From: Muricea muricata
Taxonomy: Eukaryota; Cnidaria; Anthozoa; Malacalcyonacea; Plexauridae
NCBI GenBank assembly: GCA_963855995.1
Contig: OY979716.1
Location: 55,767,907 to 55,831,906, forward strand
Length of the DNA stretch: 64,000 bases
Direction of reading: 5' to 3'
The first letter of the stretch is position 1, and each line of letters opens with the position of its first letter. The notes beneath the pieces were generated by a model. The model worked only from the letters and a program-made list of their open reading frames with translations. It did not search any database and was not told where the DNA came from. Positions 564 to 43,314 of this stretch are shown here, piece after piece. The position numbers were made by a program, and so were the translations under genes.

Positions 564-635
564 TAGCAGAGAGTGGTTTCGATCCACCGACCTCTGGGTT
601 ACGGGCCCAGCACGCTTCCACTGCGCCACTCTGCT
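564..635 (-). tRNA. tRNA-iMet(CGT variant): Initiator tRNA body with CGT anticodon, unit 1 (reference CGT copy)
   Basis: The 72-nt body is a eukaryotic initiator: acceptor AGCAGAG/CTCTGCT with A1-T72, D-stem GCGC/GCGT, anticodon stem CTGGG/CCCAG with the three G-C pairs, C33, T-loop ATCGAAA with A54 and A60, and discriminator A. The loop reads CCCGTAA, so the anticodon is CGT (cognate codon ACG) instead of CAT. All other positions match the CAT consensus. MetRS normally needs CAU, so charging is uncertain. An automated caller may label it Thr(CGT). Confidence 0.93.
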
Positions 636-834
636 TAATTTGCTAAATTGCATGCGTGGTTATGCATAAGCTAACTCAAATTAATTAATTAACAAAATAA
701 TACGATATTATATTTTCCTTTTATCTAAGAAAATCCTATCTCTAAAGTTTCTCGTCTTCTAATTAAGCTTCACCTACCATTTTTTATTCCAAAACACCTG
801 CATTCTTGAGATGAATAGATGTGTGCAGCTTGCT
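636..834. other. iMet-to-Gln-relic spacer
   Basis: AT-rich spacer of about 200 bp, the 5' flank of the initiator gene. It contains ATGCATAAGC and a TTAATTAATTAA run that loses one 4-bp repeat in units 20, 23 and 36, and an AT-rich ATATTATATTTT stretch. No gene is seen. Confidence 0.7.
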
Positions 835-906
835 GGTTTCCTGGTGTCATGGTTAGCACTTTTGACTTTTAATCCAAGAATCCAAATTGAAATCTTGGCA
901 GTAAAT
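835..906 (+). pseudogene. tRNA-Gln-like relic, unit 1 (reference copy)
   Basis: This aligns along its length with animal tRNA-Gln: GGTTTCC, then TGGTGTCATGGTTAGCAC as D-arm, an anticodon arm with loop CTTTTAA, and T-arm loop TTGAAAT. The acceptor strands (GGTTTCC against CAGTAAA) barely pair, the anticodon stem has a T-C mismatch, position 14 is C, and the B box is poor. The anticodon position reads TTT instead of the Gln TTG. It is probably a dead tRNA-Gln carried in the unit. Confidence 0.6.
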
Positions 907-965
907 GCTATTATTTTGTACTTTTTGCCGCTCTATTCCGTAAAAATACTTTAAACTCGTGCCCG

Positions 966-1036
966 GCTTACTTCTCAAGCACTATTATTCTCGCCTAGTT
1001 TGGGAGAAGTCACGCTTCGGTTCCCGTACAATCCCA
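966..1036 (+). pseudogene. Possible tRNA-Gly-like relic (one per unit)
   Basis: ATTCTCGCCT at 987-996 and TTCGGTTCCCG at 1016-1026 match the anticodon arm and T-loop region of animal tRNA-Gly(GCC), at about the right spacing. The 5' half and acceptor match only weakly, and the anticodon is not GCC. It also contains a perfect 7-bp inverted repeat ACTTCTC/GAGAAGT (970-976, 1004-1010). It recurs about 130 nt downstream of each Gln-like relic. It could be chance similarity. Confidence 0.3.
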
Positions 1037-1438
1037 TGATTTAGCCTATTCAAAAAGTTTGAAAACGAAGCACGATTAAACTATTTTGTTTCTGGCAAAC
1101 AAATGTCCACAAACGTGCTATTTTCTTCCGTCATACATAAAAATTTCATCACGGTTCCATTCGCGGAAATCAGATAACTGGATGTTGATATAGAAGTGTT
1201 ATACCATATGATTCCTGCATTGTTGCAAATGTTCTGGTTGTTCGAAGCGCATTATTGGAAAACATACAAAAGAGAAAATACAGTATGGAACAGGCCTGTA
1301 ATAAAAAGCAAGACCGATAAAAGGAAATATACTTGAAACAAAGCATGAAAAAGTTTGACTTTCACATTTGAAACAGCGAAAACTTAATTCTTTTTATTCA
1401 TCCACACGAAACTACTACTCAATTCAAAATTACTTCCT
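1037..1438. other. Gly-like patch to Ile spacer
   Basis: About 400 bp of AT-rich spacer. A plus-strand frame of 77 codons starts at an ATG here (1104 in this unit) but is broken by TAA in unit 1 and in many others, so I do not call a gene. No RNA gene is recognised. Confidence 0.65.
1426..1429 (-). terminator. Pol III terminator of tRNA-Ile (unit 1 example)
   Basis: Four T on the minus strand, 10 nt beyond the discriminator. This minimal terminator is conserved in the units. Confidence 0.6.
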
Positions 1439-1511
1439 TGGTCTGTGTGAGGATCGAACTCACGACATTGGCGTTATTAGCACCACGCTCTACCTACTGA
1501 GCTAACAGACC
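1439..1511 (-). tRNA. tRNA-Ile-AAT: tRNA-Ile (AAT), unit 1 (reference copy)
   Basis: Decodes Ile codons after A34 is changed to inosine, as is usual in eukaryotes. The 73-nt cloverleaf has acceptor GGTCTGT/ACAGACC, D-stem GCTC/GAGC, anticodon stem TGGTG/CGCCA around CTAATAA, T-stem GTGAG/CTCAC with loop TTCGATC, and discriminator A. A and B boxes are intact. There is no intron. Confidence 0.98.
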
Positions 1512-1942
1512 AACCATTTCAAATGTGTAGATAAAACGTTATTGTTGTAATCCAAGCACTGAAAATTTTCTCTTGTTTCGTATCAATTTCACTCAGTCAC
1601 AAATTCAAAACGAATTTAAATTAGTATCAATCAATTTATGTGTAGACTTCTCGTTTTTGCAGGAGAGCCACTGCATGTGTAATAATATTAACAGCATGTT
1701 TGCCATTTGGTATAATTCAAACTATGGTTCTAGTACGAGTACCTAATTCTAGAAAAAGTTAAAATTAGCTGGGGAAATCTGTAATGAATTTGTAGACAAC
1801 CCTTCATCGAAGGTATGACAATTACATCATCTTCTAGAACGAATTCTTCTAGAAAAAATTAATTTCTCTAGCACTGGTGAGCAATGTAGTCAATATAAAC
1901 ATTCTCAATAGCAATTTTTAAAAAAGAACAAGAGGAAGAAAA
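1512..1942. other. Ile-to-Asn spacer
   Basis: About 430 bp, the longest gene-free stretch in the unit. It is the 5' flank of Ile on one side and the 3' flank of Asn on the other. It holds the TTCTAGAA cluster and inverted repeat described at 165-290. Short frames here are not supported as genes. A splice-donor-like GGTGAG followed by CAATTTTTAA was noted but no snRNA or spliced-leader gene can be supported. Confidence 0.65.
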
Positions 1943-1966
1943 CGTCCCTGGATGGATTTGAACCAT

Positions 1967-1999
<33 letters not shown>

Positions 2000-2016
2000 C
2001 ATTGCGCCACAGAGAC
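1943..2016 (-). tRNA. tRNA-Asn-GTT: tRNA-Asn (GTT), unit 2
   Basis: No change seen from the unit 1 gene. Confidence 0.97.
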
Positions 2017-2145
2017 TTTCGCAAGATGTGAAAGTGCAGGTCACGTGCAAGATTAATCAAATGCCTTGCAAGATATGGACATATAGTTTAGACCTCAATG
2101 AATTGAAATGCTGGTGTAACTAAGCACGTGGTAAAAAAATTTAAG

Positions 2146-2217
2146 TAGCAGAGAGTGGTTTCGATCCACCGACCTCTGGGTTATGGGCCCAGCACGCTTC
2201 CACTGCGCCACTCTGCT
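2146..2217 (-). tRNA. tRNA-iMet-CAT: Initiator tRNA-Met (CAT), unit 2 (reference CAT copy)
   Basis: Starts translation at AUG with eIF2. Same body as the unit 1 copy but with loop CCCATAA, anticodon CAT. All stems, C33, A54 and C56 are intact, so this is one of ten clean CAT copies (units 2, 3, 4, 14, 31, 32, 34, 36, 39, 41). Confidence 0.98.
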
Positions 2218-2416
2218 TAATTTGCTAAATTGCATGCGTGGTTATGCATAAGCTAACTCAAATTAATTAATTAACAAAATAATACGATATTATATTTTCC
2301 TTTTATCTAAGAAAGTCCTATCTCTAAAGTTTCTCGTCTTCTAACTAAGCTTCACCTACCATTTTTTATTCCAAAACACCTGCATTCTTGAGATGAATAG
2401 ATGTGTGCAGCTTGCT

Positions 2417-2488
2417 GGTTTCCTGGTGTCATGCTTAGCACTTTTGACTTTTAATCCAAGAATCCAAATTGAAATCTTGGCAGTAAAT
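2417..2488 (+). pseudogene. tRNA-Gln-like relic, unit 2
   Basis: D-loop reads CATGC, so position 19 is C; this is the commoner form (31 of 40) and faces G56 in the T-loop. Confidence 0.55.
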
Positions 2489-3020
2489 GCTATTATTTTG
2501 TACTTTTTGCCGCTCTATTCCGTAAAAATACTTTAAACTCGTGCCCGGCTTACTTCTCAAGCGCTATTATTCTCGCCTAGTTTGGGAGAAGTCACGCTTC
2601 GGTTCCCGTACAATCCCATGATTTAGCCTATTCAAAAAGTTTGAAAACGAAGCACGATAAAACTATTTTGTTTCTGGCAAACAAATGTCCACAAACGTGC
2701 TATTTTCTTCCATCATACATAAAAATTTGATCACGGTTCCATTTGCGGAAATCAGACAACTTGATGTTGATATAGAAGTGTTATACTATATGATTCCTGC
2801 ATTGTTGCAAATGTTCTGGTTGTTCGAAGCGCATTATTGGAAAACATACAAAAGAGAAAATACAGTATGGAACAGGCCTGTAATAAAAAGCAAGACCGAT
2901 AAAAGGAAATATACTTGAAACAAAGCATGAAAAAGTTTGACTTTCACATTTGAAACAGCGAAAACTTAATTCTTTTTATTCATCCACACGAAACTACTAC
3001 TCAATTCAAAATTACTTCCT

Positions 3021-3093
3021 TGGTCTGTGCGAGGATCGAACTCACGACATTGGCGTTATTAGCACCACGCTCTACCTACTGAGCTAACAGACC
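3021..3093 (-). tRNA. tRNA-Ile-AAT: tRNA-Ile (AAT), unit 2
   Basis: A64 changed to G, giving a T-G pair in the T-stem; otherwise intact. Confidence 0.96.
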
Positions 3094-3319
3094 AACCATT
3101 TCAAATGTGTAGATAAAACGTTATTGTTGTAATCCAAGCACTGAAAATTTTCTCTTGTTTCGTATCAATTTCACTCAGTCACAAATTCAAAACGAATTTA
3201 AATTAGTATCAATCAATTTATGTGTAGACTTCTCGTTTTTGCAGGAGAGCCACTGCATGTGTAATAGTATTAACAGCATGTTTGCCATTTGGTATAATTC
3301 AAACTATGGTTCTAGTACG

Positions 3320-3360
3320 ATTACCTAATCGTAGACAACCCTTGTAGACAACCCTTCATC
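3320..3360. repeat. Local rearrangement in the unit 2/3 spacer
   Basis: A 13-bp GTAGACAACCCTT is duplicated head to tail (3331-3343, 3344-3356) and about 43 bp of the usual sequence is missing, making this unit 30 bp short. The lost piece includes one TTCTAGAA palindrome and the left arm of the long inverted repeat. Confidence 0.85.
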
Positions 3361-3494
3361 GAAGGTATGACAATTACATCATCTTCTAGAACGAATTCTT
3401 CTAGAAAAAATTAATTTCTCCAGCACTGGTGAGCAATGTAGTCAATATAAACATTCTCAATAGCAATTTTTAAAAAAGAACAAGAGGAAGAAAA

Positions 3495-3568
3495 CGTCCC
3501 TGGATGGATTTGAACCATCAACCTTTCGGATAACAGCCGAACGCGCTAACCCATTGCGCCACAGAGAC
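3495..3568 (-). tRNA. tRNA-Asn-GTT: tRNA-Asn (GTT), unit 3, A38T
   Basis: Anticodon loop reads CTGTTAT; the anticodon itself is unchanged. Confidence 0.95.
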
Positions 3569-3697
3569 TTTCGCAAGATGTGAAAGTGCAGGTCACGTGC
3601 AAGATTAATCAAATGCCTTGCAAGATATGGACATATAGTTTAGACCTCAATGAACTGAAATGCTGGTGTAACTAAGCACGTGGTAAAAAAATTTAAG

Positions 3698-3769
3698 TAG
3701 CAGAGAGTGGTTTCGATCCACCGACCTCTGGGTTATGGGCCCAGCACGCTTCCACTGCGCCACTCTGCT
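3698..3769 (-). tRNA. tRNA-iMet-CAT: Initiator tRNA-Met (CAT), unit 3
   Basis: Clean CAT copy. Confidence 0.97.
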
Positions 3770-3968
3770 TAATTTGCTAAATTGCATGCGTGGTTATGCA
3801 TAAGCTAACTCAAATTAATTAATTAACAAAATAATACGATATTATATTTTCCTTTTATCTAAGAAAATCCTATCTCTAAAGTTTCTCGTCTTCTAATTAA
3901 GCTTCACCTACCATTTTTTATTCCAAAACACCTGCATTCTTGAGATGAATAGATGTGTGCAGCTTGCT

Positions 3969-4040
3969 GGTTTCCTGGTGTCATGCTTAGCACTTTTGAC
4001 TTTTAATCCAAGAATCCAAATTGAAATCTTGGCAGTAAAT
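3969..4040 (+). pseudogene. tRNA-Gln-like relic, unit 3
   Basis: CATGC form. Confidence 0.55.
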
Positions 4041-4572
4041 GCTATTATTTTGTACTTTTTGCCGCTCTATTCCGTAAAAATACTTTAAACTTGTGCCCGG
4101 CTTACTTCTCAAGCGCTATTATTCTCGCCTAGTTTGGGAGAAGTCACGCTTCGGTTCCCGTACAATCCCATGATTTAGCCTATTCAAAAAGTTTGAAAAC
4201 GAAGCACGATTAAACTATTTTGTTTCTGGCAAACAAATGTCCACAAACGTGCTATTTTCTTCCGTCATACATAAAAATTTCATCACGGTTCCATTTGCGG
4301 AAATCAGACAACTTGATGTTGATATAGAAGTGTTATACTATATGATTCCTGCATTGTTGCAAATGTTCTGGTTGTTCGAAGCGCATTATTGGAAAACATA
4401 CAAAAGAGAAAATACAGTATGGAACAGGCCTGTAATAAAAAGCAAGACCGATAAAAGGAAATATACTTGAAACAAAGCATGAAAAAGTTTGACTTTCACA
4501 TTTGAAACAGCGAAAAATTAATTCTTTTTATTCATCCACACGAAACTACTACTCAATTCAAAATTACTTCCT

Positions 4573-4645
4573 TGGTCTGTGTGAGGATCGAACTCACGAC
4601 ATTGGCGTTATTAGCACCACGCCCTACCTACTGAGCTAACAGACC
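4573..4645 (-). tRNA. tRNA-Ile-AAT: tRNA-Ile (AAT), unit 3
   Basis: A23 changed to G, giving a T-G pair in the D-stem. Confidence 0.96.
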
Positions 4646-5076
4646 AACCATTTCAAATGTGTAGATAAAACGTTATTGTTGTAATCCAAGCACTGAAAAT
4701 TTTCTCTTGTTTCGTATCAATTTCACTCAGTCACAAATTCAAAACGAATTTAAATTAGTATCAATCAATTTATGTGTAGACTTCTCCTTTTTGCAGGAGA
4801 GCCACTGCATGTGTAATAGTATTAACAGCATGTTTGCCATTTGGTATAATTCAAACTATGGTTCCAGTACGATTACCTAATTCTAGAAAAAGTTAAAATT
4901 AGCTGGGGAAATCTGTAATGAATTTGTAGACAACCCTTCATCGAAGGTACGACAATTACATCATCTTCTAGAACGAATTCTTCTAGAAAAAATTGATTTC
5001 TCCAGCACTGGTGAGCAATGTAGTCAATATAAACATTCTCAATAGCAATTTTTAAAAAAGAACAAGAGGAAGAAAA

Positions 5077-5100
5077 CGTCCCTGGATGGATTTGAACCAT

Positions 5101-5133
<33 letters not shown>

Positions 5134-5150
5134 CATTGCGCCACAGAGAC
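5077..5150 (-). tRNA. tRNA-Asn-GTT: tRNA-Asn (GTT), unit 4
   Basis: Same as unit 1. Confidence 0.97.
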
Positions 5151-5279
5151 TTTCGCAAGATGTGAAAGTGCAGGTCACGTGCAAGATTAATCAAATGCCT
5201 TGCACGATATGGACATATAGTTTAGACCTCAATGAACTGAAATGCTGGTGTAACTAAGCACGTGGTAAAAAAATTTAAG

Positions 5280-5351
5280 TAGCAGAGAGTGGTTTCGATC
5301 CACCGACCTCTGGGTTATGGGCCCAGCACGCTTCCACTGCGCCACTCTGCT
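5280..5351 (-). tRNA. tRNA-iMet-CAT: Initiator tRNA-Met (CAT), unit 4
   Basis: Clean CAT copy. Confidence 0.97.
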
Positions 5352-5550
5352 TAATTTGCTAAATTGCATGCGTGGTTATGCATAAGCTAACTCAAATTAA
5401 TTAATTAACAAAATAATACGATATTATATTTTCCTTTTATCTAAGAAAATCCTATCTCTAAAGTTTCTCGTCTTCTAATTAAGCTTCACCTACCATTTTT
5501 TATTCCAAAACACCTGCATTCTTGAGATGAATAGATGTGTGCAGCTTGCT

Positions 5551-5622
5551 GGTTTCCTGGTGTCATGCTTAGCACTTTTGACTTTTAATCCAAGAATCCA
5601 AATTGAAATCTTGGCAGTAAAT
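5551..5622 (+). pseudogene. tRNA-Gln-like relic, unit 4
   Basis: CATGC form. Confidence 0.55.
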
Positions 5623-6154
5623 GCTATTATTTTGTACTTTTTGCCGCTCTATTCCGTAAAAATACTTTAAACTTGTGCCCGGCTTACTTCTCAAGCGCTA
5701 TTATTCTCGCCTAGTTTGGGAGAAGTCACGCTTCGGTTCCCGTACAATCCCATGATTTAGCCTATTCAAAAAGTTTGAAAACGAAGCACGATTAAACTAT
5801 TTTGTTTCTGGCAAACAAATGTCCACAAACGTGCTATTTTCTTCCGTCATACATAAAAATTTCATCACGGTTCCATTTGCGGAAATCAGACAACTTGATG
5901 TTGATATAGAAGTGTTATACTATATGATTCCTGCATTGTTGCAAATGTTCTGGTTGTTCGAAGCGCATTATTGGAAAACATACAAAAGAGAAAATACAGT
6001 ATGGAACAGGCCTGTAATAAAAAGCAAGACCGATAAAAGGAAATATACTTGAAACAAAGCATGAAAAAGTTTGACTTTCACATTTGAAACAGCGAAAACT
6101 TAATTCTTTTTATTCATTCACACGAAACTACTACTCAATTCAAAATTACTTCCT

Positions 6155-6227
6155 TGGTCTGTGTGAGGATCGAACTCACAACATTGGCGTTATTAGCACC
6201 ACGCTCTACCTACTGAGCTAACAGACC
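6155..6227 (-). tRNA. tRNA-Ile-AAT: tRNA-Ile (AAT), unit 4
   Basis: C48 changed to T, altering the usual G15-C48 contact; stems intact. Confidence 0.95.
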
Positions 6228-6658
6228 AACCATTTCAAATGTGTAGATAAAACGTTATTGTTGTAATCCAAGCACTGAAAATTTTCTCTTGTTTCGTATC
6301 AATTTCACTCAGTCACAAATTCAAAACGAATTTAAATTAGTATGAATCAATTTATGTGTAGACTTCTCGTTTTTGCAGGAGAGCCACTGCATGTGTAATA
6401 GTATTAACAGCATGTTTGCCATTTGGTATAATTCAAACTATGGTTCCAGTACGATTACCTAATTCTAGAAAAAGTTAAAATTAGCTGGGGAAATCTGTAA
6501 TGAATTTGTAGACAACCCTTCATCGAAGGTACAACAATTACATCATCTTCTAGAACGAATTCTTCTAGAAAAAATTGATTTCTCCAGCACTGGTGAGCAA
6601 TGTAGTCAATATAAACATTCTCAATAGCAATTTTTAAAAAAGAAAAAGAGGAAGAAAA

Positions 6659-6732
6659 CGTCCCTGGATGGATTTGAACCATCAACCTTTCGGTTAAAAG
6701 CCGAACGCGCTAACCCATTGCGCCACAGAGAC
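6659..6732 (-). tRNA. tRNA-Asn body with TTT (Lys) anticodon, unit 5
   Basis: Position 34 is T instead of G, so the loop reads CTTTTAA and the anticodon would decode AAA/AAG Lys codons. The rest of the Asn body is unchanged. AsnRS relies on the GUU anticodon, so charging identity is uncertain. It is the only such copy among 41. Confidence 0.92.
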
Positions 6733-6861
6733 TTTCGCAAGATGTGAAAGTGCAGGTCACGTGCAAGATTAATCAAATGCCTTGCAAGATATGGACATAT
6801 AGTTTAGACCTCAATGAACTGAAATGCTGGTGTAACTAAGCACGTGGTAAAAAAATTTAAG

Positions 6862-6933
6862 TAGCAGAGAGTGGTTTCAATCCACCGACCTCTGGGTTAT
6901 GGGCCCAGCACGCTTCCACTGCGCCACTCTGCT
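6862..6933 (-). tRNA. tRNA-iMet-CAT: Initiator tRNA-Met (CAT) with C56T, unit 5
   Basis: T-loop reads ATTGAAA: the invariant C56, needed for the G19-C56 contact and for the B box, is T. Anticodon CAT. Probably weak or inactive. Confidence 0.85.
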
Positions 6934-7132
6934 TAATTTTCTAAATTGCATGCGTGGTTATGCATAAGCTAACTCAAATTAATTAATTAACAAAATAATA
7001 CGATACTATATTTTCCTTTTATCTAAGAAAATCCTATCTCTAAAGTTTCTCGTCTTCTAATTAAGCTTCACCTACCATTTTTTATTCCAAAACACCTGCA
7101 TTCTTGAGATGAATAGATGTGTGCAGCTTGCT

Positions 7133-7204
7133 GGTTTCCTGGTGTCATGGTTAGCACTTTTGACTTTTAATCCAAGAATCCAAATTGAAATCTTGGCAGT
7201 AAAT
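7133..7204 (+). pseudogene. tRNA-Gln-like relic, unit 5
   Basis: CATGG form (G18 G19 kept), as in unit 1. Confidence 0.55.
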
Positions 7205-7736
7205 GCTATTATTTTGTACTTTTTGCCGCTCTATTCCGTAAAAATACTTTAAACTCGTGCCCGGCTTACTTCTCAAGCGCTATTATTCTCGCCTAGTTTG
7301 GGAGAAGTCACGCTTCGGTTCCCGTACAATCCCATGATTTAGCCTATTCAAAAAGTTTGAAAACGAAGCACGATTAAACTATTTTGTTTCTGGCAAACAA
7401 ATGTCCACAAACGTGCTATTTTCTTCCGTCATACATAAAACTTTCATCACGGTTCCATTCGCGGAAATCAGATAACTGGATGTTGATATAGAAGTGTTAT
7501 ACCATATGATTCCTGGATTGTTGCAAATGTTCTGGTTGTTCGAAGCGCATTATTGGAAAACATACAAAAGAGAAAATACAGTATGGAACAGGCCTGTAAT
7601 AAAAAGCAAGACCGATAAAAGGAAATATACTTGAAACAAAGCATGAAAAAGCTTGACTTTCACATTTGAAACAGCGAAAACTTAATTCTTTTTATTCATC
7701 CACACGAAACTACTACTCAATTCAAAATTACTTCCT

Positions 7737-7809
7737 TGGTCTGTGTGAGGATGGAACTCACGACATTGGCGTTATTAGCACCACGCTCTACCTACTGAGC
7801 TAACAGACC
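7737..7809 (-). tRNA. tRNA-Ile-AAT: tRNA-Ile (AAT), unit 5, G57C
   Basis: T-loop reads TTCCATC; purine 57 is lost and the B box is altered. Confidence 0.9.
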
Positions 7810-8240
7810 AACCATTTCAAATGTGTAGATAAAACGTTATTGTTGTAATCCAAGCACTGAAAATTTTCTCTTGTTTCGTATCAATTTCACTCAGTCACAA
7901 ATTCAAAACGAATTTAAATTAGTATCAATCAATTTATGTGTAGACTTCTCGTTTTTGCAGGAGAGCCACTGCATGTGTAATAGTATTAACAGCATGTTTG
8001 CCATTTGGTATAATTCAAACTATGGTTCTAGTACGATTACCTAATTCTAGAAAAAGTTAAAATTAGCTGGGGAAATCTGTAATGAATTTGTAGACAACCC
8101 TTCATCGAAGGTATGACAATTACATCATCTTCTAGAACGAATTCTTCTAGAAAAAATTAATTTCTCCAGCACTGGTGAGCAATGTAGTCAATATAAACAT
8201 TCTCAATAGCAATTTTTAAAAAAGAACAAGAGAAAGAAAA

Positions 8241-8314
8241 CGTCCCTGGATGGATTTGAACCATCAACCTTTCGGATAACAGCCGAACGCGCTAACCCAT
8301 TGCGCCACAGAGAC
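8241..8314 (-). tRNA. tRNA-Asn-GTT: tRNA-Asn (GTT), unit 6, A38T
   Basis: Same loop change as unit 3. Confidence 0.95.
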
Positions 8315-8443
8315 TTTCGCAAGATGTGAAAGTGCAGGTCACGTGCAAGATTAATCAAATGCCTTGCAAGATATGGACATATAGTTTAGACCTCAATGAA
8401 CTGAAATGCTGGTGTAACTAAGCACGTGGTAAAAAAATTTAAG

Positions 8444-8515
8444 TAGCAGAGAGTGGTTTCAATCCACCGACCTCTGGGTTATGGGCCCAGCACGCTTCCA
8501 CTGCGCCACTCTGCT
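8444..8515 (-). tRNA. tRNA-iMet-CAT: Initiator tRNA-Met (CAT) with C56T, unit 6
   Basis: C56T as in unit 5, but next to a CATGC relic, unlike the other C56T units. Confidence 0.85.
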
Positions 8516-8714
8516 TAATTTGCTAAATTGCATGCGTGGTTATGCATAAGCTAACTCAAATTAATTAATTAACAAAATAATACGATATTATATTTTCCTT
8601 TTATCTAAGAAAATCCTATCTCTAAAGTTTCTCGTCTTCTAACTAAGCTTCACCTACCATTTTTTATTCCAAAACACCTGCATTCTTGAGATGAATAGAT
8701 GTGTGCAGCTTGCT

Positions 8715-8786
8715 GGTTTCCTGGTGTCATGCTTAGCACTTTTGACTTTTAATCCAAGAATCCAAATTGAAATCTTGGCAGTAAAT
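8715..8786 (+). pseudogene. tRNA-Gln-like relic, unit 6
   Basis: CATGC form. Confidence 0.55.
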
Positions 8787-9318
8787 GCTATTATTTTGTA
8801 CTTTTTGCCGCTCTATTCCGTAAAAATACTTTAAACTCGTGCCCGGCTTACTTCTCAAGCGCTATTATTCTCGCCTAGTTTGGGAGAAGTCACGCTTCGG
8901 TTCCCGTACAATCCCATGATTTAGCCTATTCAAAAAGTTTGAAAACGAAGCACGATAAAACTATTTTGTTTCTGGCAAACAAATGTCCACAAACGTGCTA
9001 TTTTCTTCCATCATACATAAAAATTTGATCACGGTTCCATTTGCGGAAATCAGACAACTTGATGTTGATATAGAAGTGTTATACCATATGATTCCTGCAT
9101 TGTTGCAAATGTTCTGGTTGTTCGAAGCGCATTATTGGAAAACATACAAAAGAGAAAATACAGTATGGAACAGGCCTGTAATAAAAAGCAAGACCGATAA
9201 AAGGAAATATACTTGAAACAAAGCATGAAAAAGTTTGACTTTCACATTTGAAACAGCGAAAACTTAATTCTTTTTATTCATCCACACGAAACTACTACTC
9301 AATTCAAAATTACTTCCT

Positions 9319-9391
9319 TGGTCTGTGTGAGGATCGAACTCACGACATTGGCGTTATTAGCACCACGCTCTACCTACTGAGCTAACAGACC
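9319..9391 (-). tRNA. tRNA-Ile-AAT: tRNA-Ile (AAT), unit 6
   Basis: Same as unit 1. Confidence 0.97.
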
Positions 9392-9822
9392 AACCATTTC
9401 AAATGTGTAGATAAAACGTTATTGTTGTAATCCAAGCACTGAAAATTTTCTCTTGTTTCGTATCAATTTCACTCAGTCACAAATTCAAAACGAATTTAAA
9501 TTAGTATGAATCAATTTATGTGTAGACTTCTCGTTTTTGCAGGAGAGCCACTGCATGTGTAATAGTATTAACAGCATGTTTGCCATTTGGTATAATTCAA
9601 ACTATGGTTCTAGTACGATTACCTAATTCTAGAAAAAGTTAAAATTAGCTGGGGAAATCTGTAATGAATTTGTAGACAACCCTTCATCGAAGGTATGACA
9701 ATTACATCATCTTCTAGAACGAATTCTTCTGGAAAAAATTAATTTCTCCAGCACTGGTGAGCAATGTAGTCAATATAAACATTCTCAATAGCAATTTTTA
9801 AAAAAGAACAAGAGGAAGAAAA

Positions 9823-9896
9823 CGTCCCTGGATGGATTTGAACCATCAACCTTTCGGATAACAGCCGAACGCGCTAACCCATTGCGCCACAGAGAC
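9823..9896 (-). tRNA. tRNA-Asn-GTT: tRNA-Asn (GTT), unit 7, A38T
   Basis: Same loop change as units 3 and 6. Confidence 0.95.
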
Positions 9897-10025
9897 TTTC
9901 GCAAGATGTGAAAGTGCAGGTCACGTGCAAGATTAATCAAATGCCTTGCAAGATATGGACATATAGTTTAGACCTCAATGAACTGAAATGCTGGTGTAAC
10001 TAAGCACGTGGTAAAAAAATTTAAG

Positions 10026-10097
10026 TAGCAGAGAGTGGTTTCGATCCACCGACCTCTGGGTTACGGGCCCAGCACGCTTCCACTGCGCCACTCTGCT
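10026..10097 (-). tRNA. tRNA-iMet(CGT variant): Initiator body with CGT anticodon, unit 7
   Basis: CGT copy. It is the only CGT unit whose Asn 5' flank has TTTCGC instead of TTTTG. Confidence 0.93.
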
Positions 10098-11428: not shown

Positions 11429-11461
<33 letters not shown>

Positions 11462-33575: not shown

Positions 33576-33608
<33 letters not shown>

Positions 33609-33754: not shown

Positions 33755-33826
33755 TAGCAGAGAGTGGTTTCGATCCACCGACCTCTGGGTTACGGGCCCA
33801 GCACGCTTCCACTGCGCCACTCTGCT
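33755..33826 (-). tRNA. tRNA-iMet(CGT variant): Initiator body with CGT anticodon, unit 22
   Basis: CGT copy, otherwise unchanged. Confidence 0.93.
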
Positions 33827-34025
33827 TAATTTGCTAAATTGCATGCGTGGTTATGCATAAGCTAACTCAAATTAATTAATTAACAAAATAATACGATATT
33901 ATATTTTCCTTTTATCTAAGAAAATCCTATCTCTAAAGTTTCTCGTCTTCTAATTAAGCTTCACCTACCATTTTTTATTCCAAAACACCTGCATTCTTGA
34001 GATGAATAGATGTGTGCAGCTTGCT

Positions 34026-34097
34026 GGTTTCCTGGTGTCATGCTTAGCACTTTTGACTTTTAATCCAAGAATCCAAATTGAAATCTTGGCAGTAAAT
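34026..34097 (+). pseudogene. tRNA-Gln-like relic, unit 22
   Basis: CATGC form. Confidence 0.55.
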
Positions 34098-34629
34098 GCT
34101 ATTATTTTGTACTTTTTGCCGCTCTATTCCGTAAAAATACTTTAAACTCGTGCCCGGCTTACTTCTCAAGTGCTATTATTCTCGCCTAGTTTGGGAGAAG
34201 TCACGCTTCGGTTCCCGTACAATCCCATGATTTAGCCTATTCAAAAAGTTTGAAAACGAAGCACGATTAAACTATTTTGTTTCTGGCAAACAAATGTCCA
34301 CAAACGTGCTATTTTCTTCCGTCATACATAAAAATTTCATCACGGTTCCATTCGCGGAAATCAGATAACTGGATGTTGATATAGAAGTGTTATACCATAT
34401 GATTCCTGCATTGTTGCAAATGTTCTGGTTGTTCGAAGCGCATTATTGGAAAACATACAAAAGAGAAAATACAGTATGGAACAGGCCTGTAATAAAAAGC
34501 AAGACCGATAAAAGGAAATATACTTGAAACAAAGCATGAAAAAGTTTGACTTTCACATTTGAAACAGCGAAAACTTAATGCTTTTTACTCATCCACACGA
34601 AACTACTACTCAATTCAAAATTACTTCCT

Positions 34630-34702
34630 TGGTCTGTGTGAGGATCGAACTCACGACATTGGCGTTATTAGCACCACGCTCTACCTACTGAGCTAACAGA
34701 CC
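34630..34702 (-). tRNA. tRNA-Ile-AAT: tRNA-Ile (AAT), unit 22
   Basis: Same as unit 1. Confidence 0.97.
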
Positions 34703-35133
34703 AACCATTTCAAATGTGTAGATAAAACGTTATTGTTGTAATCCAAGCACTGAAAATTTTCTCTTGTTTCGTATCAATTTCACTCAGTCACAAATTCAAA
34801 ACGAATTTAAATTAGTATCAATCAATTTATGTGTAGACTTCTCGTTTTTGCAGGAGAGCCACTGCATTTGTAATAGTATTAACAGCATGTTTGCCATTTG
34901 GTATAATTCAAACTATGGTTCCAGTACGATTACCTAATTCTAGAAAAAGTTAAAATTGGCTGGGGAAATCTGTAATGAATTTGTAGACAACCCTTCATCG
35001 AAGGTACGACAATTACATCATCTTCTAGAACGAATTCTTCTAGAAAAAATTGATTTCTCCAGCACTGGTGAGCAATGTAGTCAATATAAACATTCTCAAT
35101 AGCAATTTTTAAAAAAGAACAAGAGGAAGAAAA

Positions 35134-35157
35134 CGTCCCTGGATGGATTTGAACCAT

Positions 35158-35190
<33 letters not shown>

Positions 35191-35207
35191 CATTGCGCCA
35201 CAGAGAC
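35134..35207 (-). tRNA. tRNA-Asn-GTT: tRNA-Asn (GTT), unit 23
   Basis: Same as unit 1. Confidence 0.97.
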
Positions 35208-35336
35208 TTTCGCAAGATGCGAAAGTGCAGGTCACGTGCAAGATTAATCAAATGCCTTGCAAGATATGGACATATAGTTTAGACCTCAATGAACTGAAAT
35301 GCTGGTGTAACTAAGCACGTGGTAAAAAAATTTAAG

Positions 35337-35408
35337 TAGCAGAGAGTGGTTTCAATCCACCGACCTCTGGGTTATGGGCCCAGCACGCTTCCACTGCGCC
35401 ACTCTGCT
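35337..35408 (-). tRNA. tRNA-iMet-CAT: Initiator tRNA-Met (CAT) with C56T, unit 23
   Basis: C56T copy with the 4-bp flank deletion seen in unit 20. Confidence 0.85.
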
Positions 35409-35603
35409 TAATTTGCTAAATTGCATGCGTGGTTATGCATAATCTAACTCAAATTAATTAACAAAATAATACGATATTATATTTTCCTTTTATCTAAGAA
35501 AATCCTATCTCTAAAGTTTCTCGTCTTCTAATTAAGCTTCACCTACCATTTTTTATTCCAAAACACCTGCATTCTTGAGATGAATAGATGTGTGCAGCTT
35601 GCT

Positions 35604-35675
35604 GGTTTCCTGGTGTCATGGTTAGCACTTTTGACTTTTAATCCAAGAATCCAAATTGAAATCTTGGCAGTAAAT
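35604..35675 (+). pseudogene. tRNA-Gln-like relic, unit 23
   Basis: CATGG form. Confidence 0.55.
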
Positions 35676-36207
35676 GCTATTATTTTGTACTTTTTGCCGC
35701 TCTATTCCGTAAAAATACTTTAAACTCGTGCCCGGCTTACTTCTCAAGCGCTATTATTCTCGCCTAGTTTGGGAGAAGTCACGCTTCGGTTCCCGTACAA
35801 TCCCATGATTTAGCCTATTCAAAAAGTTTGAAAACGAAGCACGATTAAACTATTTTGTTTCTGGCAAACAAATGTCCACAAACGTGCTATTTTCTTCCGT
35901 CATACATAAAAATTTCATCACGGTTCCATTCGCGGAAATCAGATAACTGGATGTTGATATAGAAGTGTTATACCATATGATTCCTGCATTGTTGCAAATG
36001 TTCTGGTTGTTCGAAGCGCATTATTGGAAAACATACAAAAGAGAAAATACAGTATGGAACAGGCCTGTAATAAAAAGCAAGACCGATAAAAGGAAATATA
36101 CTTGAAACAAAGCATGAAAAAGTTTGACTTTCACATTTGAAACAGCGAAAACTTAATTCTTTTTATTCATCCACACGAAACTACTACTCAATTCAAAATT
36201 ACTTCCT

Positions 36208-36280
36208 TGGTCTGTGTGAGGATCGAACTCACGACATTGGCGTTATTAGCACCACGCTCTACCTACTGAGCTAACAGACC
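36208..36280 (-). tRNA. tRNA-Ile-AAT: tRNA-Ile (AAT), unit 23
   Basis: Same as unit 1. Confidence 0.97.
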
Positions 36281-36711
36281 AACCATTTCAAATGTGTAGA
36301 TAAAACGTTATTGTTGTAATCCAAGCACTGAAAATTTTCTCTTGTTTCGTATCAATTTCACTCAGTCACAAATTCAAAACGAATTTAAATTAGTATCAAT
36401 CAATTTATGTGTAGACTTCTCGTTTTTGCAGGAGAGCCACTGCATGTGTAATAATATTAACAGCATGTTTGCCATTTGGTATAATTCAAACTATGGTTCT
36501 AGTACGAGTACCTAATTCTAGAAAAAGTTAAAATTAGCTGGGGAAATCTGTAATGAATTTGTAGACAACCCTTCATCGAAGGTACGACAATTACATCATC
36601 TTCTAGAACGAATTCTTCTAGAAAAAATTAATTTCTCCAGCACTGGTGAGCAATGTAGTCAATATAAACATTCTCAATAGCAATTTTTAAAAAAGAACAA
36701 GAGGAAGAAAA

Positions 36712-36735
36712 CGTCCCTGGATGGATTTGAACCAT

Positions 36736-36768
<33 letters not shown>

Positions 36769-36785
36769 CATTGCGCCACAGAGAC
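36712..36785 (-). tRNA. tRNA-Asn-GTT: tRNA-Asn (GTT), unit 24
   Basis: Same as unit 1. Confidence 0.97.
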
Positions 36786-36914
36786 TTTCGCAAGATGTGA
36801 AAGTGCAGGTCACGTGCAAGATTAATCAAATGCCTTGCAAGATATGGACATATAGTTTAGACCTCAATGAATTGAAATGCTGGTGTAACTAAGCACGTGG
36901 TAAAAAAATTTAAG

Positions 36915-36986
36915 TAGCAGAGAGTGGTTTCGATCCACCGACCTCTGGGTTATGGGCCCAGCACGCTTCCAGTGCGCCACTCTGCT
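36915..36986 (-). tRNA. tRNA-iMet-CAT: Initiator tRNA-Met (CAT) with G15C, unit 24
   Basis: Same A-box change as unit 10. Confidence 0.9.
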
Positions 36987-37185
36987 TAATTTGCTAAATT
37001 GCATGCGTGGTTATGCATAAGCTAACTCAAATTAATTAATTAACAAAATAATACGATATTATATTTTCCTTTTATCTAAGAAAATCCTATCTCTAAAGTT
37101 TCTCGTCTTCTAACTAAGCTTCACCTACCATTTTTTATTCCAAAACACCTGCATTCTTGAGATGAATAGATGTGTGCAGCTTGCT

Positions 37186-37257
37186 GGTTTCCTGGTGTCA
37201 TGCTTAGCACTTTTGACTTTTAATCCAAGAATCCAAATTGAAATCTTGGCAGTAAAT
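37186..37257 (+). pseudogene. tRNA-Gln-like relic, unit 24
   Basis: CATGC form. Confidence 0.55.
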
Positions 37258-37789
37258 GCTATTATTTTGTACTTTTTGCCGCTCTATTCCGTAAAAATAC
37301 TTTAAACTCGTGCCCGGCTTACTTCTCAAGCGCTATTATTCTCGCCTAATTTGGGAGAAGTCACGCTTCGGTTCCCGTACAATCCCATGATTTAGCCTAT
37401 TCAAAAAGTTTGAAAACGAAGCACGATTAAACTATTTTGTTTCTGGCAAACAAATGTCCACAAACGTGCTATTTTCTTCCGTCATACATAAAAATTTCAT
37501 CACGGTTCCATTCGCGGAAATCAGATAACTGGATGTTGATATAGAAGTGTTATACCATATGATTCCTGCATTGTTGCAAATGTTCTGGTTGTACGAAGCG
37601 CATTATTGGAAAACATACAAAAGAGAAAATACAGTATGGAACAGGCCTGTAATAAAAAGGAAGACCGATAAAAGGAAATATACTTGAAACAAAGCATGAA
37701 AAAGTTTGACTTTCACATTTGAAACAGCGAAAACTTGATGCTTTTTACTCATCCACACGAAACTACTACTCAATTCAAAATTACTTCCT

Positions 37790-37862
37790 TGGTCTGTGTG
37801 AGGATCGAACTCACGACATTGGCGTTATTAGCACCACGCTCTACCTACTGAGCTAACAGACC
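37790..37862 (-). tRNA. tRNA-Ile-AAT: tRNA-Ile (AAT), unit 24
   Basis: Same as unit 1. Confidence 0.97.
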
Positions 37863-38293
37863 AACCATTTCAAATGTGTAGATAAAACGTTATTGTTGTA
37901 ATCCAAGCACTGAAAATTTTCTCTTGTTTCGTATCAATTTCACTCAGTCACAAATTCAAAACGAATTTAAATTAGTATCAATCAATTTATGTGTAGACTT
38001 CTCGTTTTTGCAGGAGAGCCACTGCATGTGTAATAGTATTAACAGCATGTTTGCCATTTGGTATAATTCAAACTATGGTTCCAGTACGATTACCTAATTC
38101 TAGAAAAAGTTAAAATTAGCTGGGGAAATCTGTAATGAATTTGTAGACAACCCTTCATCGAAGGTACGACAATTACATCATCTTCTAGAACGAATTCTTC
38201 TAGAAAAAATTGATTTCTCCAGCACTGGTGAGCAATGTAGTCGATATAAACATTCTCAATAGCAATTTTTAAAAAAGAACAAGAGGAAGAAAA

Positions 38294-38367
38294 CGTCCCT
38301 GGATGGATTTGAACCATCAACCTTTTGGTTAACAGCCGAACGCGCTAACCCATTGCGCCACAGAGAC
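38294..38367 (-). tRNA. tRNA-Asn-GTT: tRNA-Asn (GTT), unit 25, G41A
   Basis: Anticodon stem gains a C29-A41 mismatch. Confidence 0.92.
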
Positions 38368-38496
38368 TTTTGGAAGATGTGAAAGTGCAGGTCACGTGCA
38401 AGATTAATCAAATGCCTTGCAAGATATGGACATATAGTTTAGACCTCAATGAACTGAAATGCTGGTGTAACTAAGCACGTGGTAAAAAAATTTAAG

Positions 38497-38568
38497 TAGC
38501 AGAGAGTGGTTTCGATCCACCGACCTCTGGGTTACGGGCCCAGCACGCTTCCACTGCGCCACTCTGCT
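38497..38568 (-). tRNA. tRNA-iMet(CGT variant): Initiator body with CGT anticodon, unit 25
   Basis: CGT copy, otherwise unchanged. Confidence 0.93.
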
Positions 38569-38767
38569 TAATTTGCTAAATTGCATGCGTGGTTATGCAT
38601 AAGCTAACTCAAATTAATTAATTAACAAAATAATACGATATTATATTTTCCTTTTATCTAAGAAAATCCTATCTCTAAAGTTTCTCGTCTTCTAATTAAG
38701 CTTCACCTACCATTTTTTATTCCAAAACACCCGCATTCTTGAGATGAATAGATGTGTGCAGCTTGCT

Positions 38768-38839
38768 GGTTTCCTGGTGTCATGCTTAGCACTTTTGACT
38801 TTTAATCCAAGAATCCAAATTGAAATCTTGGCAGTAAAT
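38768..38839 (+). pseudogene. tRNA-Gln-like relic, unit 25
   Basis: CATGC form. Confidence 0.55.
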
Positions 38840-39371
38840 GCTATTATTTTGTACTTTTTGCCGCTTGATTCCGTAAAAATACTTTAAACTCGTGCCCGGC
38901 TTACTTCTCAAGCGCTATTATTCTCGCCTAGTTTGGGAGAAGTCACGCTTCGGTTCCCGTACAATCCCATGATTTAGCCTATTCAAAAAGTTTGAAAACG
39001 AAGCACGATTAAACTATTTTGTTTCTGGCAAACAAATGTCCACAAACGTGCTATTTTCTTCCGTCATACATAAAAATTTCATCACGGTTCCATTTGCGGA
39101 AATCAGACAACTTGATGTTGATATAGAAGTGTTATACGATATGATTCCTGCATTGTTGCAAATGTTCTGGTTGTTCGAAGCGCATTATTGGAAAACATAC
39201 AAAAGAGAAAATACAGTATGGAACAGGCCTGTAATAAAAAGCAAGACCGATAAAAGGAAATATACTTGAAAAAAACCCTTAAAAAGTTTGACTTTCACAT
39301 TTGAAACAGCGAAAACTTAATTCTTTTTATTCATCCACACGAAACTACTACTCAATTCAAAATTACTTCCT

Positions 39372-39444
39372 TGGTCTGTGTGAGGATCGAACTCACAACA
39401 TTGGCGTTATTAGCACCACGCTCTACCAACTGAGCTAACAGACC
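39372..39444 (-). tRNA. tRNA-Ile-AAT: tRNA-Ile (AAT), unit 25
   Basis: Carries the same A17T and C48T pair as unit 12, 13 units away. Confidence 0.96.
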
Positions 39445-39875
39445 AACCATTTCAAATGTGTAGATAAAACGTTATTGTTGTAATCCAAGCACTGAAAATT
39501 TTCTCTTGTTTCGTATCAATTTCACTCAGTCACAAATTCAAAACGAATTTAAATTAGTATCAATCAATTTATGTGTAGACTTCTCGTTTTTGCAGGAGAG
39601 CCACTGCATGTGTAATAGTATTAACAGCATGTTTGCCATTTGGTATAATTCAAACTATGGTTCCAGTACGATTACCTAATTCTAGAAAAAGTTAAAATTA
39701 GCTGGGGAAATCTGTAATGAATTTGTAGACAACCCTTCATCGAAGGTACAACAATTACATCATCTTCTAGAACGAATTCTTCTAGAAAAAATTGATTTCT
39801 CCAGCACTGGTGAGCAATGTAGTCAATATAAACATTCTCAATAGCAATTTTTAAAAAAGAAAAAGAGGAAGAAAA

Positions 39876-39949
39876 CGTCCCTGGATGGATTTGAACCATC
39901 AACCTTTCGGTTAACAGTTGAACGCGCTAACCCATTGCGCCACAGAGAC
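39876..39949 (-). tRNA. tRNA-Asn-GTT: tRNA-Asn (GTT), unit 26, damaged anticodon stem
   Basis: G30 and G31 are both A, leaving two adjacent A-C mismatches next to the anticodon loop. Probably a failing copy. Confidence 0.85.
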
Positions 39950-40078
39950 TTTCGCAAGATGTGAAAGTGCAGGTCACGTGCAAGATTAATCAAATGCCTT
40001 GCAAGATATGGACATATAGTTTAGACCTCAATGAACTGAAATGCTGGTGTAACTAAGCACGTGGTAAAAAAATTTAAG

Positions 40079-40150
40079 TAGCAGAGAGTGGTTTCAATCC
40101 ACCGACCTCTGGGTTATGGGCCCAGCACGCTTCCACTGCGCCACTCTGCT
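40079..40150 (-). tRNA. tRNA-iMet-CAT: Initiator tRNA-Met (CAT) with C56T, unit 26
   Basis: C56T copy. Confidence 0.85.
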
Positions 40151-40349
40151 TAATTTGCTAAATTGCATGCGTGGTTATGCATAAGCTAACTCAAATTAAT
40201 TAATTAACAAAATAATACGATATTATATTTTCCTTTTATCTAAGAAAATCCTATCTCTAAAGTTTCTCGTCTTCTAATTAAGCTTCACCTACCATTTTTT
40301 ATTCCAAAACACCTGCATTCTTGAGATGAATAGATGTGTGCAGCTTGCT

Positions 40350-40421
40350 GGTTTCCTGGTGTCATGGTTAGCACTTTTGACTTTTAATCCAAGAATCCAA
40401 ATTGAAATCTTGGCAGTAAAT
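40350..40421 (+). pseudogene. tRNA-Gln-like relic, unit 26
   Basis: CATGG form. Confidence 0.55.
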
Positions 40422-40953
40422 GCTATTATTTTGTACTTTTTGCCGCTCTATTCCGTAAAAATACTTTAAACTCGTGCCCGGCTTACTTCTCAAGCGCTAT
40501 TATTCTCGCCTAGTTTGGGAGAAGTCACGCTTCGGTTCCCGTACAATCCCATGATTTAGCCTATTCAAAAAGTTTGAAAACGAAGCACGATTAAACTATT
40601 TTGTTTCTGGCAAACAAATGTCCACAAACGTGCTATTTTCTTCCGTCATACATAAAAATTTCATCACGGTTCCATTCGCGGAAATCAGATAACTGGATGT
40701 TGATATAGAAGTGTTATACCATATGATTCCTGCATTGTTGCAAATGTTCTGGTTGTTCGAAGCGCATTATTGGAAAACATACAAAAGAGAAAATACAGTA
40801 TGGAACAGGCCTGTAATAAAAAGCAAGACCGATAAAAGGAAATATACTTGAAACAAAGCATGAAAAAGTTTGACTTTCACATTTGAAACAGCGAAAACTT
40901 AATTCTTTTTATTCATCCACACGAAATTACTACTCAATTCAAAATTACTTCCT

Positions 40954-41026
40954 TGGTCTGTGTGAGGATCGAACTCACGACATTGGCGTTATTAGCACCA
41001 CGCTCTACCTACTGAGCTAACAGACC
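40954..41026 (-). tRNA. tRNA-Ile-AAT: tRNA-Ile (AAT), unit 26
   Basis: Same as unit 1. Confidence 0.97.
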
Positions 41027-41457
41027 AACCATTTCAAATGTGTAGATAAAACGTTATTGTTGTAATCCAAGCACTGAAAATTTTCTCTTGTTTCGTATCA
41101 ATTTCACTCAGTCACAAATTCAAAACGAATTTAAATTAGTATCAATCAATTTATGTGTAGACTTCTCGTTTTTGCAGGAGAGCCACTGGATGTGTAATAA
41201 TATTAACAGCATGTTTGCCATTTGGTATAATTCAAACTATGGTTCTAGTACGAGTACCTAATTCTAGAAAAAGTTAAAATTAGCTGGGGAAATCTGTAAT
41301 GAATTTGTAGACAACCCTTCATCGAAGGTATGACAATTACATCATCTTCTAGAACGAATTCTTCTAGAAAAAATTAATTTCTCCAGCACTGGTGAGCAAT
41401 GTAGTCAATATAAACATTCTCAATAGCAATTTTTAAAAAAGAACAAGAGGAAGAAAA

Positions 41458-41481
41458 CGTCCCTGGATGGATTTGAACCAT

Positions 41482-41514
<33 letters not shown>

Positions 41515-41531
41515 CATTGCGCCACAGAGAC
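41458..41531 (-). tRNA. tRNA-Asn-GTT: tRNA-Asn (GTT), unit 27
   Basis: Same as unit 1. Confidence 0.97.
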
Positions 41532-41660
41532 TTTCGCAAGATGTGAAAGTGCAGGTCACGTGCAAGATTAATCAAATGCCTTGCAAGATATGGACATATA
41601 GTTTAGACCTCAATGAATTGAAATGCTGGTGTAACTAAGCACGTGGTAAAAAAATTTAAG

Positions 41661-41732
41661 TAGCAGAGAGTGGTTTCGATCCACCGACCTCTGGGTTATG
41701 GGCCCAGCACGCTTCCAGTGCGCCACTCTGCT
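41661..41732 (-). tRNA. tRNA-iMet-CAT: Initiator tRNA-Met (CAT) with G15C, unit 27
   Basis: Same A-box change as units 10 and 24. Confidence 0.9.
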
Positions 41733-41931
41733 TAATTTGCTAAATTGCATGCGTGGTTATGCATAAGCTAACTCAAATTAATTAATTAACAAAATAATAC
41801 GATATTATATTTTCCTTTTATCTAAGAAAATCCTATCTCTAAAGTTTCTCGTCTTCTAACTAAGCTTCACCTACCATTTTTTATTCCAAAACACCTGCAT
41901 TCTTGAGATGAATAGATGTGTGCAGCTTGCT

Positions 41932-42003
41932 GGTTTCCTGGTGTCATGCTTAGCACTTTTGACTTTTAATCCAAGAATCCAAATTGAAATCTTGGCAGTA
42001 AAT
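41932..42003 (+). pseudogene. tRNA-Gln-like relic, unit 27
   Basis: CATGC form. Confidence 0.55.
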
Positions 42004-42535
42004 GCTATTATTTTGTACTTTTTGCCGCTCTATTCCGTAAAAATACTTTAAACTCGTGCCCGGCTTACTTCTCAAGCGCTATTATTCTCGCCTAGTTTGG
42101 GAGAAGTCACGCTTCGGTTCCCGTACAATCCCATGATTTAGCCTATTCAAAAAGTTTGAAAACGAAGCACGATAAAACTATTTTGTTTCTGGCAAACAAA
42201 TGTCCACAAACGTGCTATTTTCTTCCATCATACATAAAAAGTTGATCACGGTTCCATTTGCGGAAATCAGACAACTTGATGTTGATATAGAAGTGTTATA
42301 CTATATGATTCCTGCATTGTTGCAAATGTTCTGGTTGTTCGAAGCGCATTATTGGAAAACATACAAAAGAGAAAATACAGTATGGAACAGGCCTGTAATA
42401 AAAAGCAAGACCGATAAAAGGAAATATACTTGAAACAAAGCATGAAAAAGTTTGACTTTCACATTTGAAACAGCGAAAACTTAATTCTTTTTATTCATCC
42501 ACACGAAACTACTACTCAATTCAAAATTACTTCCT

Positions 42536-42608
42536 TGGTCTGTGTGAGGATCGAACTCACGACATTGGCGTTATTAGCACCACGCTCTACCTACTGAGCT
42601 AACAGACC
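42536..42608 (-). tRNA. tRNA-Ile-AAT: tRNA-Ile (AAT), unit 27
   Basis: Same as unit 1. Confidence 0.97.
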
Positions 42609-43039
42609 AACCATTTCAAATGTGTAGATAAAACGTTATTGTTGTAATCCAAGCACTGAAAATTTTCTCTTGTTTCGTATCAATTTCACTCAGTCACAAA
42701 TTCAAAACGAATTTAAATTAGTATCAATCAATTTATGTGTAGACTTCTCGTTTTTGCAGGAGAGCCACTGCATGTGTAATAGTATTAACAGCATGTTTGC
42801 CATTTGGTATAATTCAAACTATGGTTCCAGTACGATTACCTAATTCTAGAAAAAGTTAAAATTAGCTGGGGAAATCTGTAATGAATTTGTAGACAACCCT
42901 TCATCGAAGGTACGACAATTACATCATGTTCTAGAACGAATTCTTCTAGAAAAAATTGATTTCTCCAGCACTGGTGAGCAATGTAGTCAATATAAACATT
43001 CTCAATAGCAATTTTTAAAAAAGAACAAGAGGAAGAAAA

Positions 43040-43063
43040 CGTCCCTGGATGGATTTGAACCAT

Positions 43064-43096
<33 letters not shown>

Positions 43097-43113
43097 CATT
43101 GCGCCACAGAGAC
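43040..43113 (-). tRNA. tRNA-Asn-GTT: tRNA-Asn (GTT), unit 28
   Basis: Same as unit 1; left-block flanks. Confidence 0.97.
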
Positions 43114-43242
43114 TTTTGCAAGATGTGAAAGTGCAGGTCACGTGCAAGATTAATCAAATGCCTTGCAAGATATGGACATATAGTTTAGACCTCAATGAAC
43201 TGAAATGCTGGTGTAACTAAGCACGTGGTAAAAAAATTTAAG

Positions 43243-43314
43243 TAGCAGAGAGTGGTTTCGATCCACCGACCTCTGGGTTACGGGCCCAGCACGCTTCCAC
43301 TGCGCCACTCTGCT
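43243..43314 (-). tRNA. tRNA-iMet(CGT variant): Initiator body with CGT anticodon, unit 28
   Basis: Last CGT copy before the block switch; body unchanged. Confidence 0.93.

Follow-up and report, generated by a model that had tools for sequence, protein, structure and literature searches.

A CGT-anticodon initiator tRNA allele in a tandem tRNA array of Muricea muricata, most likely spread by local exchange

In Drosophila simulans, an initiator transfer RNA (tRNA) gene is the same as its sister genes except for an A to G change at Sprinzl position 35, which turns the anticodon CAU into CGU (Phillips and Ardell 2021, PMC7884595). Another paper reports this shift as undetected in its assemblies of the D. 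simulans complex and suggests allelic variation (PMC7919458). CAU-to-CGU shifts of tRNA-Met were also described for Xenopus tropicalis, zebrafish, stickleback, cod, sea urchin and two fungi (PMC8092322), and position 35 was given as the most common site of change in alloacceptor shifts (PMC3923123). Here, we describe the same change in a window of 64,000 nucleotides from the anthozoan Muricea muricata (assembly GCA_963855995.1, contig OY979716.1, positions 55767907-55831906), where 12 initiator tRNA genes of a tandem tRNA array carry the CGT anticodon.

As in the D. simulans gene, A35G is the sole change in the initiator body. There, however, it was found in a single gene, and each genome of that genus has 5-7 annotated initiators (PMC7884595), while in M. 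muricata it is present in 14 copies of a tandem array. The allele also resembles the Met-to-Thr shifts of PMC8092322 and PMC3923123 in having this anticodon change in a tRNA-Met body; the functional case among those shifts is the yeast elongator EMT2, and the animal cases are not specified as initiators in the section cited (PMC8092322). Tandem tRNA units are known from Entamoeba (PMC2652664), the human 1q23.3 repeat (PMC4041453) and the Arabidopsis tRNA-Cys clusters (PMC10701932). Homogenisation by concerted evolution was proposed for the Entamoeba arrays, with no clear evidence of pseudogene copies according to the part of the work cited (PMC2652664), and structure-damaging variants were reported inside the Arabidopsis repeats (PMC10701932). 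Compared with all three, the array described here has a 1.58-kb Asn/initiator/Ile unit, at least 178 copies, and a diversity of tRNA genes that is not below that of the spacer.

In the literature searched, we found no tandem array in which a CGU initiator was amplified. The CAU-to-CGU initiator shift is already known and, as far as this literature shows, the new part is its amplification in an array. The CGT-initiator motif matched 0 stretches in the viral and prokaryote collections viral_contigs and genome_contigs, which have little bearing on animals. The CAT-initiator motif matched 15 stretches in viral_contigs, and an array spacer word had no match in that collection.

The sampled region spans positions 55550001-55881906 of the 124-Mb contig (genome size 453 Mb). 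It includes an array sample of ~281 kb, from which 178 complete units (with 179 Ile copies) were aligned. The unit, with a tRNA-Asn, an initiator tRNA and a tRNA-Ile gene, is about 1,582 bp long, and the spacing of units was exactly 1582 bp in 132 of the 177 intervals. The leftmost array tRNA copy was located at 55600089, and the array was still present at 55881705, near the right limit of the sampled region; thus it extends past both ends of the window. With units of a single structure placed head to tail and homogenised by exchange, this is a concertedly evolving tandem tRNA array.

Within the window, ARAGORN and BLAST combined produced 41 initiator-type copies, all on the minus strand and each flanked by tRNA-Asn and tRNA-Ile; Rfam scores were computed for class representatives. 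Five initiator copies with a 2-nt deletion were overlooked by ARAGORN and recovered by BLAST and Rfam. An earlier note on this DNA had counted 28 units, a number that is correct for the first of two blocks and falls short of the 41 initiator copies in the window. Class names follow Sprinzl numbering for C56T (C55T in gene numbering). The blocks are as follows.

1..44254: units 1-28, with 12 CGT, 9 C56T, 3 G15C and 4 clean CAT initiators
44255..64000: units 29-41, a diverged block without CGT

The 12 CGT copies (of 41 window initiators) and the clean copy used as the reference are listed below.

564..635, minus strand: CGT initiator of unit 1, anticodon at 601-603 (Rfam score 56.6 bits)
10026..10097, minus strand: CGT initiator of unit 7, the only CGT copy in the window without the linked upstream T
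11608..11679, minus strand: CGT initiator of unit 8
13190..13261, minus strand: CGT initiator of unit 9
16357..16428, minus strand: CGT initiator of unit 11
17939..18010, minus strand: CGT initiator of unit 12
27431..27502, minus strand: CGT initiator of unit 18
29013..29084, minus strand: CGT initiator of unit 19
32173..32244, minus strand: CGT initiator of unit 21
33755..33826, minus strand: CGT initiator of unit 22
38497..38568, minus strand: CGT initiator of unit 25
43243..43314, minus strand: CGT initiator of unit 28
2146..2217, minus strand: clean CAT initiator of unit 2, comparison reference (57.4 bits)

Two further CGT copies are situated directly left of the window, at contig positions 55765306 and 55766888. 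The sole difference between a CGT copy and a clean CAT copy was A34G in gene numbering, which is Sprinzl A35G, for 12 of 12 copies in the window and 14 of 14 over the 178 units. Reading of the sequences showed that A1-T72, the G29-31:C39-41 pairs, C33, A54 and C56 were retained in each of the 12 window copies. The diagnostic features of an initiator are A1-T72, G29-31:C39-41, C33, A54 and A60, and the same 12 copies had all of them.

The comparison with the clean copy, therefore, bears out the earlier observation that the 12 named copies combine a CGT anticodon with an intact initiator body, as well as the count of just four clean CAT copies in units 1-28 (units 2, 3, 4 and 14). The accompanying remark that no CGT copy had a second change is true, but it does not set the CGT copies apart: the nine C56T and three G15C copies were equally free of second changes, with 0-1 change per initiator throughout units 1-28.

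The history of the allele can be traced with a marker in the spacer.

438..438, plus strand: C-to-T marker linked to CGT, at position 445 of the unit, closely upstream of tRNA-Asn and 164 bp from the anticodon change

In units 1-28 the upstream T was found in 11 of the 12 CGT units and in no other unit (r2 with CGT of 0.86). All other shared sites in these units had r2 with CGT of at most 0.36, and four gametes were observed at many sites. An assembly or read error as the source of CGT is unlikely and was rejected, since this spacer T at a distance of 164 bp is linked to CGT.

Over the 178 units, the upstream T was present in 25, namely in 13 of the 14 CGT units and in 12 units without CGT; therefore, CGT arose on an older haplotype. 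The anticodon was CAT in the other 164 of the 178 units, with no exception in units 29-41, and CGT is thus the derived state. The 14 CGT units were confined to 30 consecutive units spanning 45.8 kb. The number of adjacent CGT pairs in units 1-28 was 5 compared to 4.7 expected, so there was no clustering beyond chance. Duplication of neighbours as the only spreading process was rejected, as CGT units were unclustered within this block and their flanks differed.

A single A35G origin on a pre-existing haplotype, with flanks later lost through exchange, is the most likely history. Most likely, too, CGT spread via gene conversion or unequal crossing-over and not because cells use ACG starts. The earlier suggestion of a recent spread by conversion is supported by the one marker haplotype, the shuffled flanks and the confinement of CGT to 46 kb of the 281-kb array sample.

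It had also been argued that random decay should have given the CGT copies other hits, and that their cleanliness could mean selection for an initiator reading ACG. At the spacer singleton rate, only 1.27 private second hits were expected in 12 CGT copies of 72 nt, and the probability of observing none was 0.28 (0.051 for all 28 initiator copies of units 1-28). Among the spacer alleles with 10-20 copies, 7 of 28 had a single 72-nt haplotype, as clean as CGT, and 13 of 28 were restricted to 60 kb or less. Six spacer sites in units 1-28 had a minor allele in 11-13 copies. Chance suffices to explain the absence of second hits, and selection inferred from this absence was rejected.

Flank diversity within 400 bp of the CGT carriers was 5.67, no outlier in a set of 10 derived alleles with comparable frequencies (range 2.57-6.91). 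Over the 178 units, the diversity was 0.0156 for the initiator, 0.0121 for Asn, 0.0152 for Ile and 0.0154 for the spacer; because the tRNA genes were not less variable than the spacer, we saw no selection for CGT. Shared variable sites made up 38 of 219 positions in tRNA genes and 155 of 1363 in the spacer (P = 0.014 by Fisher's test and 0.023 by block resampling), and the excess was not significant when restricted to alleles with at least 5 copies (P = 0.32). Overall, there was no signal of selective maintenance of CGT relative to the spacer, with the power of this comparison limited by the relatedness of the copies. The claim of selection for an ACG-reading initiator is not supported by these comparisons.

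With regard to a possible use of the RNA, a run of seven T (T7) was located a few bases beyond the gene end in all 41 window initiator genes, and the CGT change lies outside both internal promoter boxes. Judging from these features, the CGT RNA could be made. The minimum-energy fold computed by RNAfold was not a cloverleaf for CAT, CGT or C56T, with structure and energy identical among the three. The G1-C72 determinant of threonyl-tRNA synthetase (ThrRS), defined in yeast and E. coli, was absent from the 12 window CGT copies, all of which have A1-T72. A G1-C71 pair was described as a major ThrRS identity element (PMC8092322), and recognition by methionyl-tRNA synthetase (MetRS) as dependent on the anticodon (PMC9976931). 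Charging by both enzymes is likely poor, because the Met anticodon is lost and the G1-C72 pair for ThrRS is missing.

Taken as a whole, the following account appears to us quite probable. One A35G hit would have occurred in one initiator gene of a large redundant tandem array, on an existing marker haplotype. Gene conversion or unequal crossing-over would then have carried the change into units close by, as for many spacer variants, and its spread would have been neutral or nearly so. The CGT RNA, if made, would be inert or minor, given the lost Met anticodon and A1-U72 in place of the G1-C72 used by ThrRS. Direct observations are the allele itself, its linkage to the marker, its restriction to one part of the array, the shuffling of its flanks, and a tRNA-gene diversity that is not lower than that of the spacer.

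Several points weigh against this account. CGT was the most common initiator class of units 1-28 (12 of 28). It also had the lowest Rfam cost among the common initiator variants (0.8 bits), and the change hits no tertiary pair and no internal box of RNA polymerase III; by these sequence features CGT is most likely the common variant best able to yield a stable RNA. Within 150 bp, the flank diversity of CGT carriers was 0.50, the joint lowest of 10 alleles (position 110 also had 0.50). The P values given above treat related copies as independent. E. coli MetRS can mischarge tRNA-Thr(CGU) (PMC9976931), and shifted fly tRNAs were suggested to keep the ancestral amino acid (PMC7919458); by analogy, residual Met charging of the CGT RNA is possible.

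These points lead to the alternative of a working ACG initiator, charged with Met or Thr, that selection would have maintained or spread. The rest of the tRNA body is intact, the T7 terminator is present in all window copies, and the promoter boxes appear intact. In yeast experiments, initiators with an altered anticodon can begin translation at the codon that matches it. Engineered initiators whose anticodon was changed do so in cell-free systems (PMC13232202); yeast ALA1 naturally uses the near-cognate codon ACG as a start, and ACG and other non-AUG starts occur in yeast without a change of the initiator (PMC2909995); and the mischarging by MetRS noted above would point the same way. The Met-to-Thr CGU shift was functional on the yeast elongator; however, that tRNA has a G1-C71 pair absent here (PMC8092322). 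Furthermore, clean copies were expected by chance, the CGT flank diversity was no outlier, and the genes did not vary less than the spacer. We consider this alternative highly unlikely. Equally little credence is given to the notion that CGU RNA, transcribed from 14 or more genes whose promoters seem competent and charged to a degree with Met or Thr, might enter scanning ribosomes and raise ACG initiation; it would then be an altered-anticodon initiator amplified in nature, which may vary between individuals.

The common variants could also be seen as silencing of surplus initiators, if the array was amplified for Asn or Ile and disarming mutations such as CGT were favoured to curb initiator dosage. 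Indeed, unchanged copies were fewer for the initiator (79 of 178) than for Asn (121 of 178) or Ile (97 of 179), the common initiator variants fall on conserved positions, and the modal haplotype frequency of the initiator (0.44) was below that of 80% of spacer windows. On the other hand, nearly all initiator positions are conserved, so that practically every hit looks critical; measured against the spacer, initiator diversity (percentile 0.62) and shared-site count (percentile 0.87) were both inside the range, and Ile had a similar shared-site excess. This explanation is, in our view, improbable. A raised mutation rate at transcribed tRNA genes might have produced A35G in both the initiator and Ile, with exchange spreading the changes afterwards. 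The excess of shared variable sites in tRNA genes and the presence of A35G in two Ile copies as well agree with this proposal, while the lack of a significant excess among alleles with at least 5 copies and a linkage pattern that fits a single CGT origin do not; we assign it a very small probability. It concerns the origin alone and is compatible with a near-neutral spread by exchange.

The initiator shift from CAU to CGU, known from D. simulans, thus has a further natural example, here in many copies. The locus illustrates how an anticodon allele may gain high copy number through array exchange alone. It also calls for caution, as repeated 'clean' tRNA variants need not imply function. At the same time, it offers a natural gene dose with which the charging of a CGU initiator in animal cells, and their tolerance of it, could be examined.

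Other initiator classes in the window are exemplified by the following copies.

6862..6933, minus strand: C56T class, 9 of 41 copies (54.8 bits)
14772..14843, minus strand: G15C class, 3 of 41 copies (53.6 bits)
44825..44894, minus strand: class with a 2-nt acceptor-stem deletion, 5 of 41 copies (42.5 bits)

Units 29-41 contained six clean CAT copies, the five deletion copies and two copies with T-stem changes (units 35 and 38, scoring 47.0 and 52.9 bits), one of these two having C60A and the other A62G+C63T. Over the 178 units, the initiator alleles were 79 clean CAT, 21 C55T (plus 2 with C67G too), 18 G15C and 14 A34G; the acceptor deletion was present in 12 copies, G17A (Sprinzl G18A) in 9 and a triple change in 5, and the rest were rarer alleles. 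Between 55842819 and 55855490, acceptor-deletion and clean initiators were interleaved, in the diverged sub-block that begins in the window at 44255.

CGT is no special case, because the array holds further anticodon alleles: Asn GTA (7 of 178), Asn TTT (1), Ile AGT (2) and Ile AAC (2). The seven Asn copies with the GTA (Tyr) anticodon have T37A + A39T, and the initiator in their units has G17A (55646459-55662352; 55760357). At 55646459-55662352 these units interleave with ordinary units, resembling a two-unit higher-order repeat. In units 17 and 18, the Ile genes (26723-26797; 28305-28379) have the Thr-type anticodon AGT through A35G, the same middle-base change as in the CGT initiators. The Asn copy of unit 5 (6659-6732) has the Lys-type anticodon TTT, resembling a GTT-to-TTT Asn/Lys shift reported in flies (PMC3923123).

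Unit 3 was short by 30 bp and had a 13-bp tandem duplication (3331-3356). A degenerate tRNA-like stretch was seen on the opposite strand at 2419-2488 (+) and 3971-4040 (+), scoring 20 bits, below the gathering score of 29, with an E-value of 0.91 in a scan of 2000-5300; we presume that it resembles tRNA-Gln. To the left of the array we observed a 5-kb run of N (55576907-55581906), two tRNA-Ser genes and one tRNA-Thr gene.

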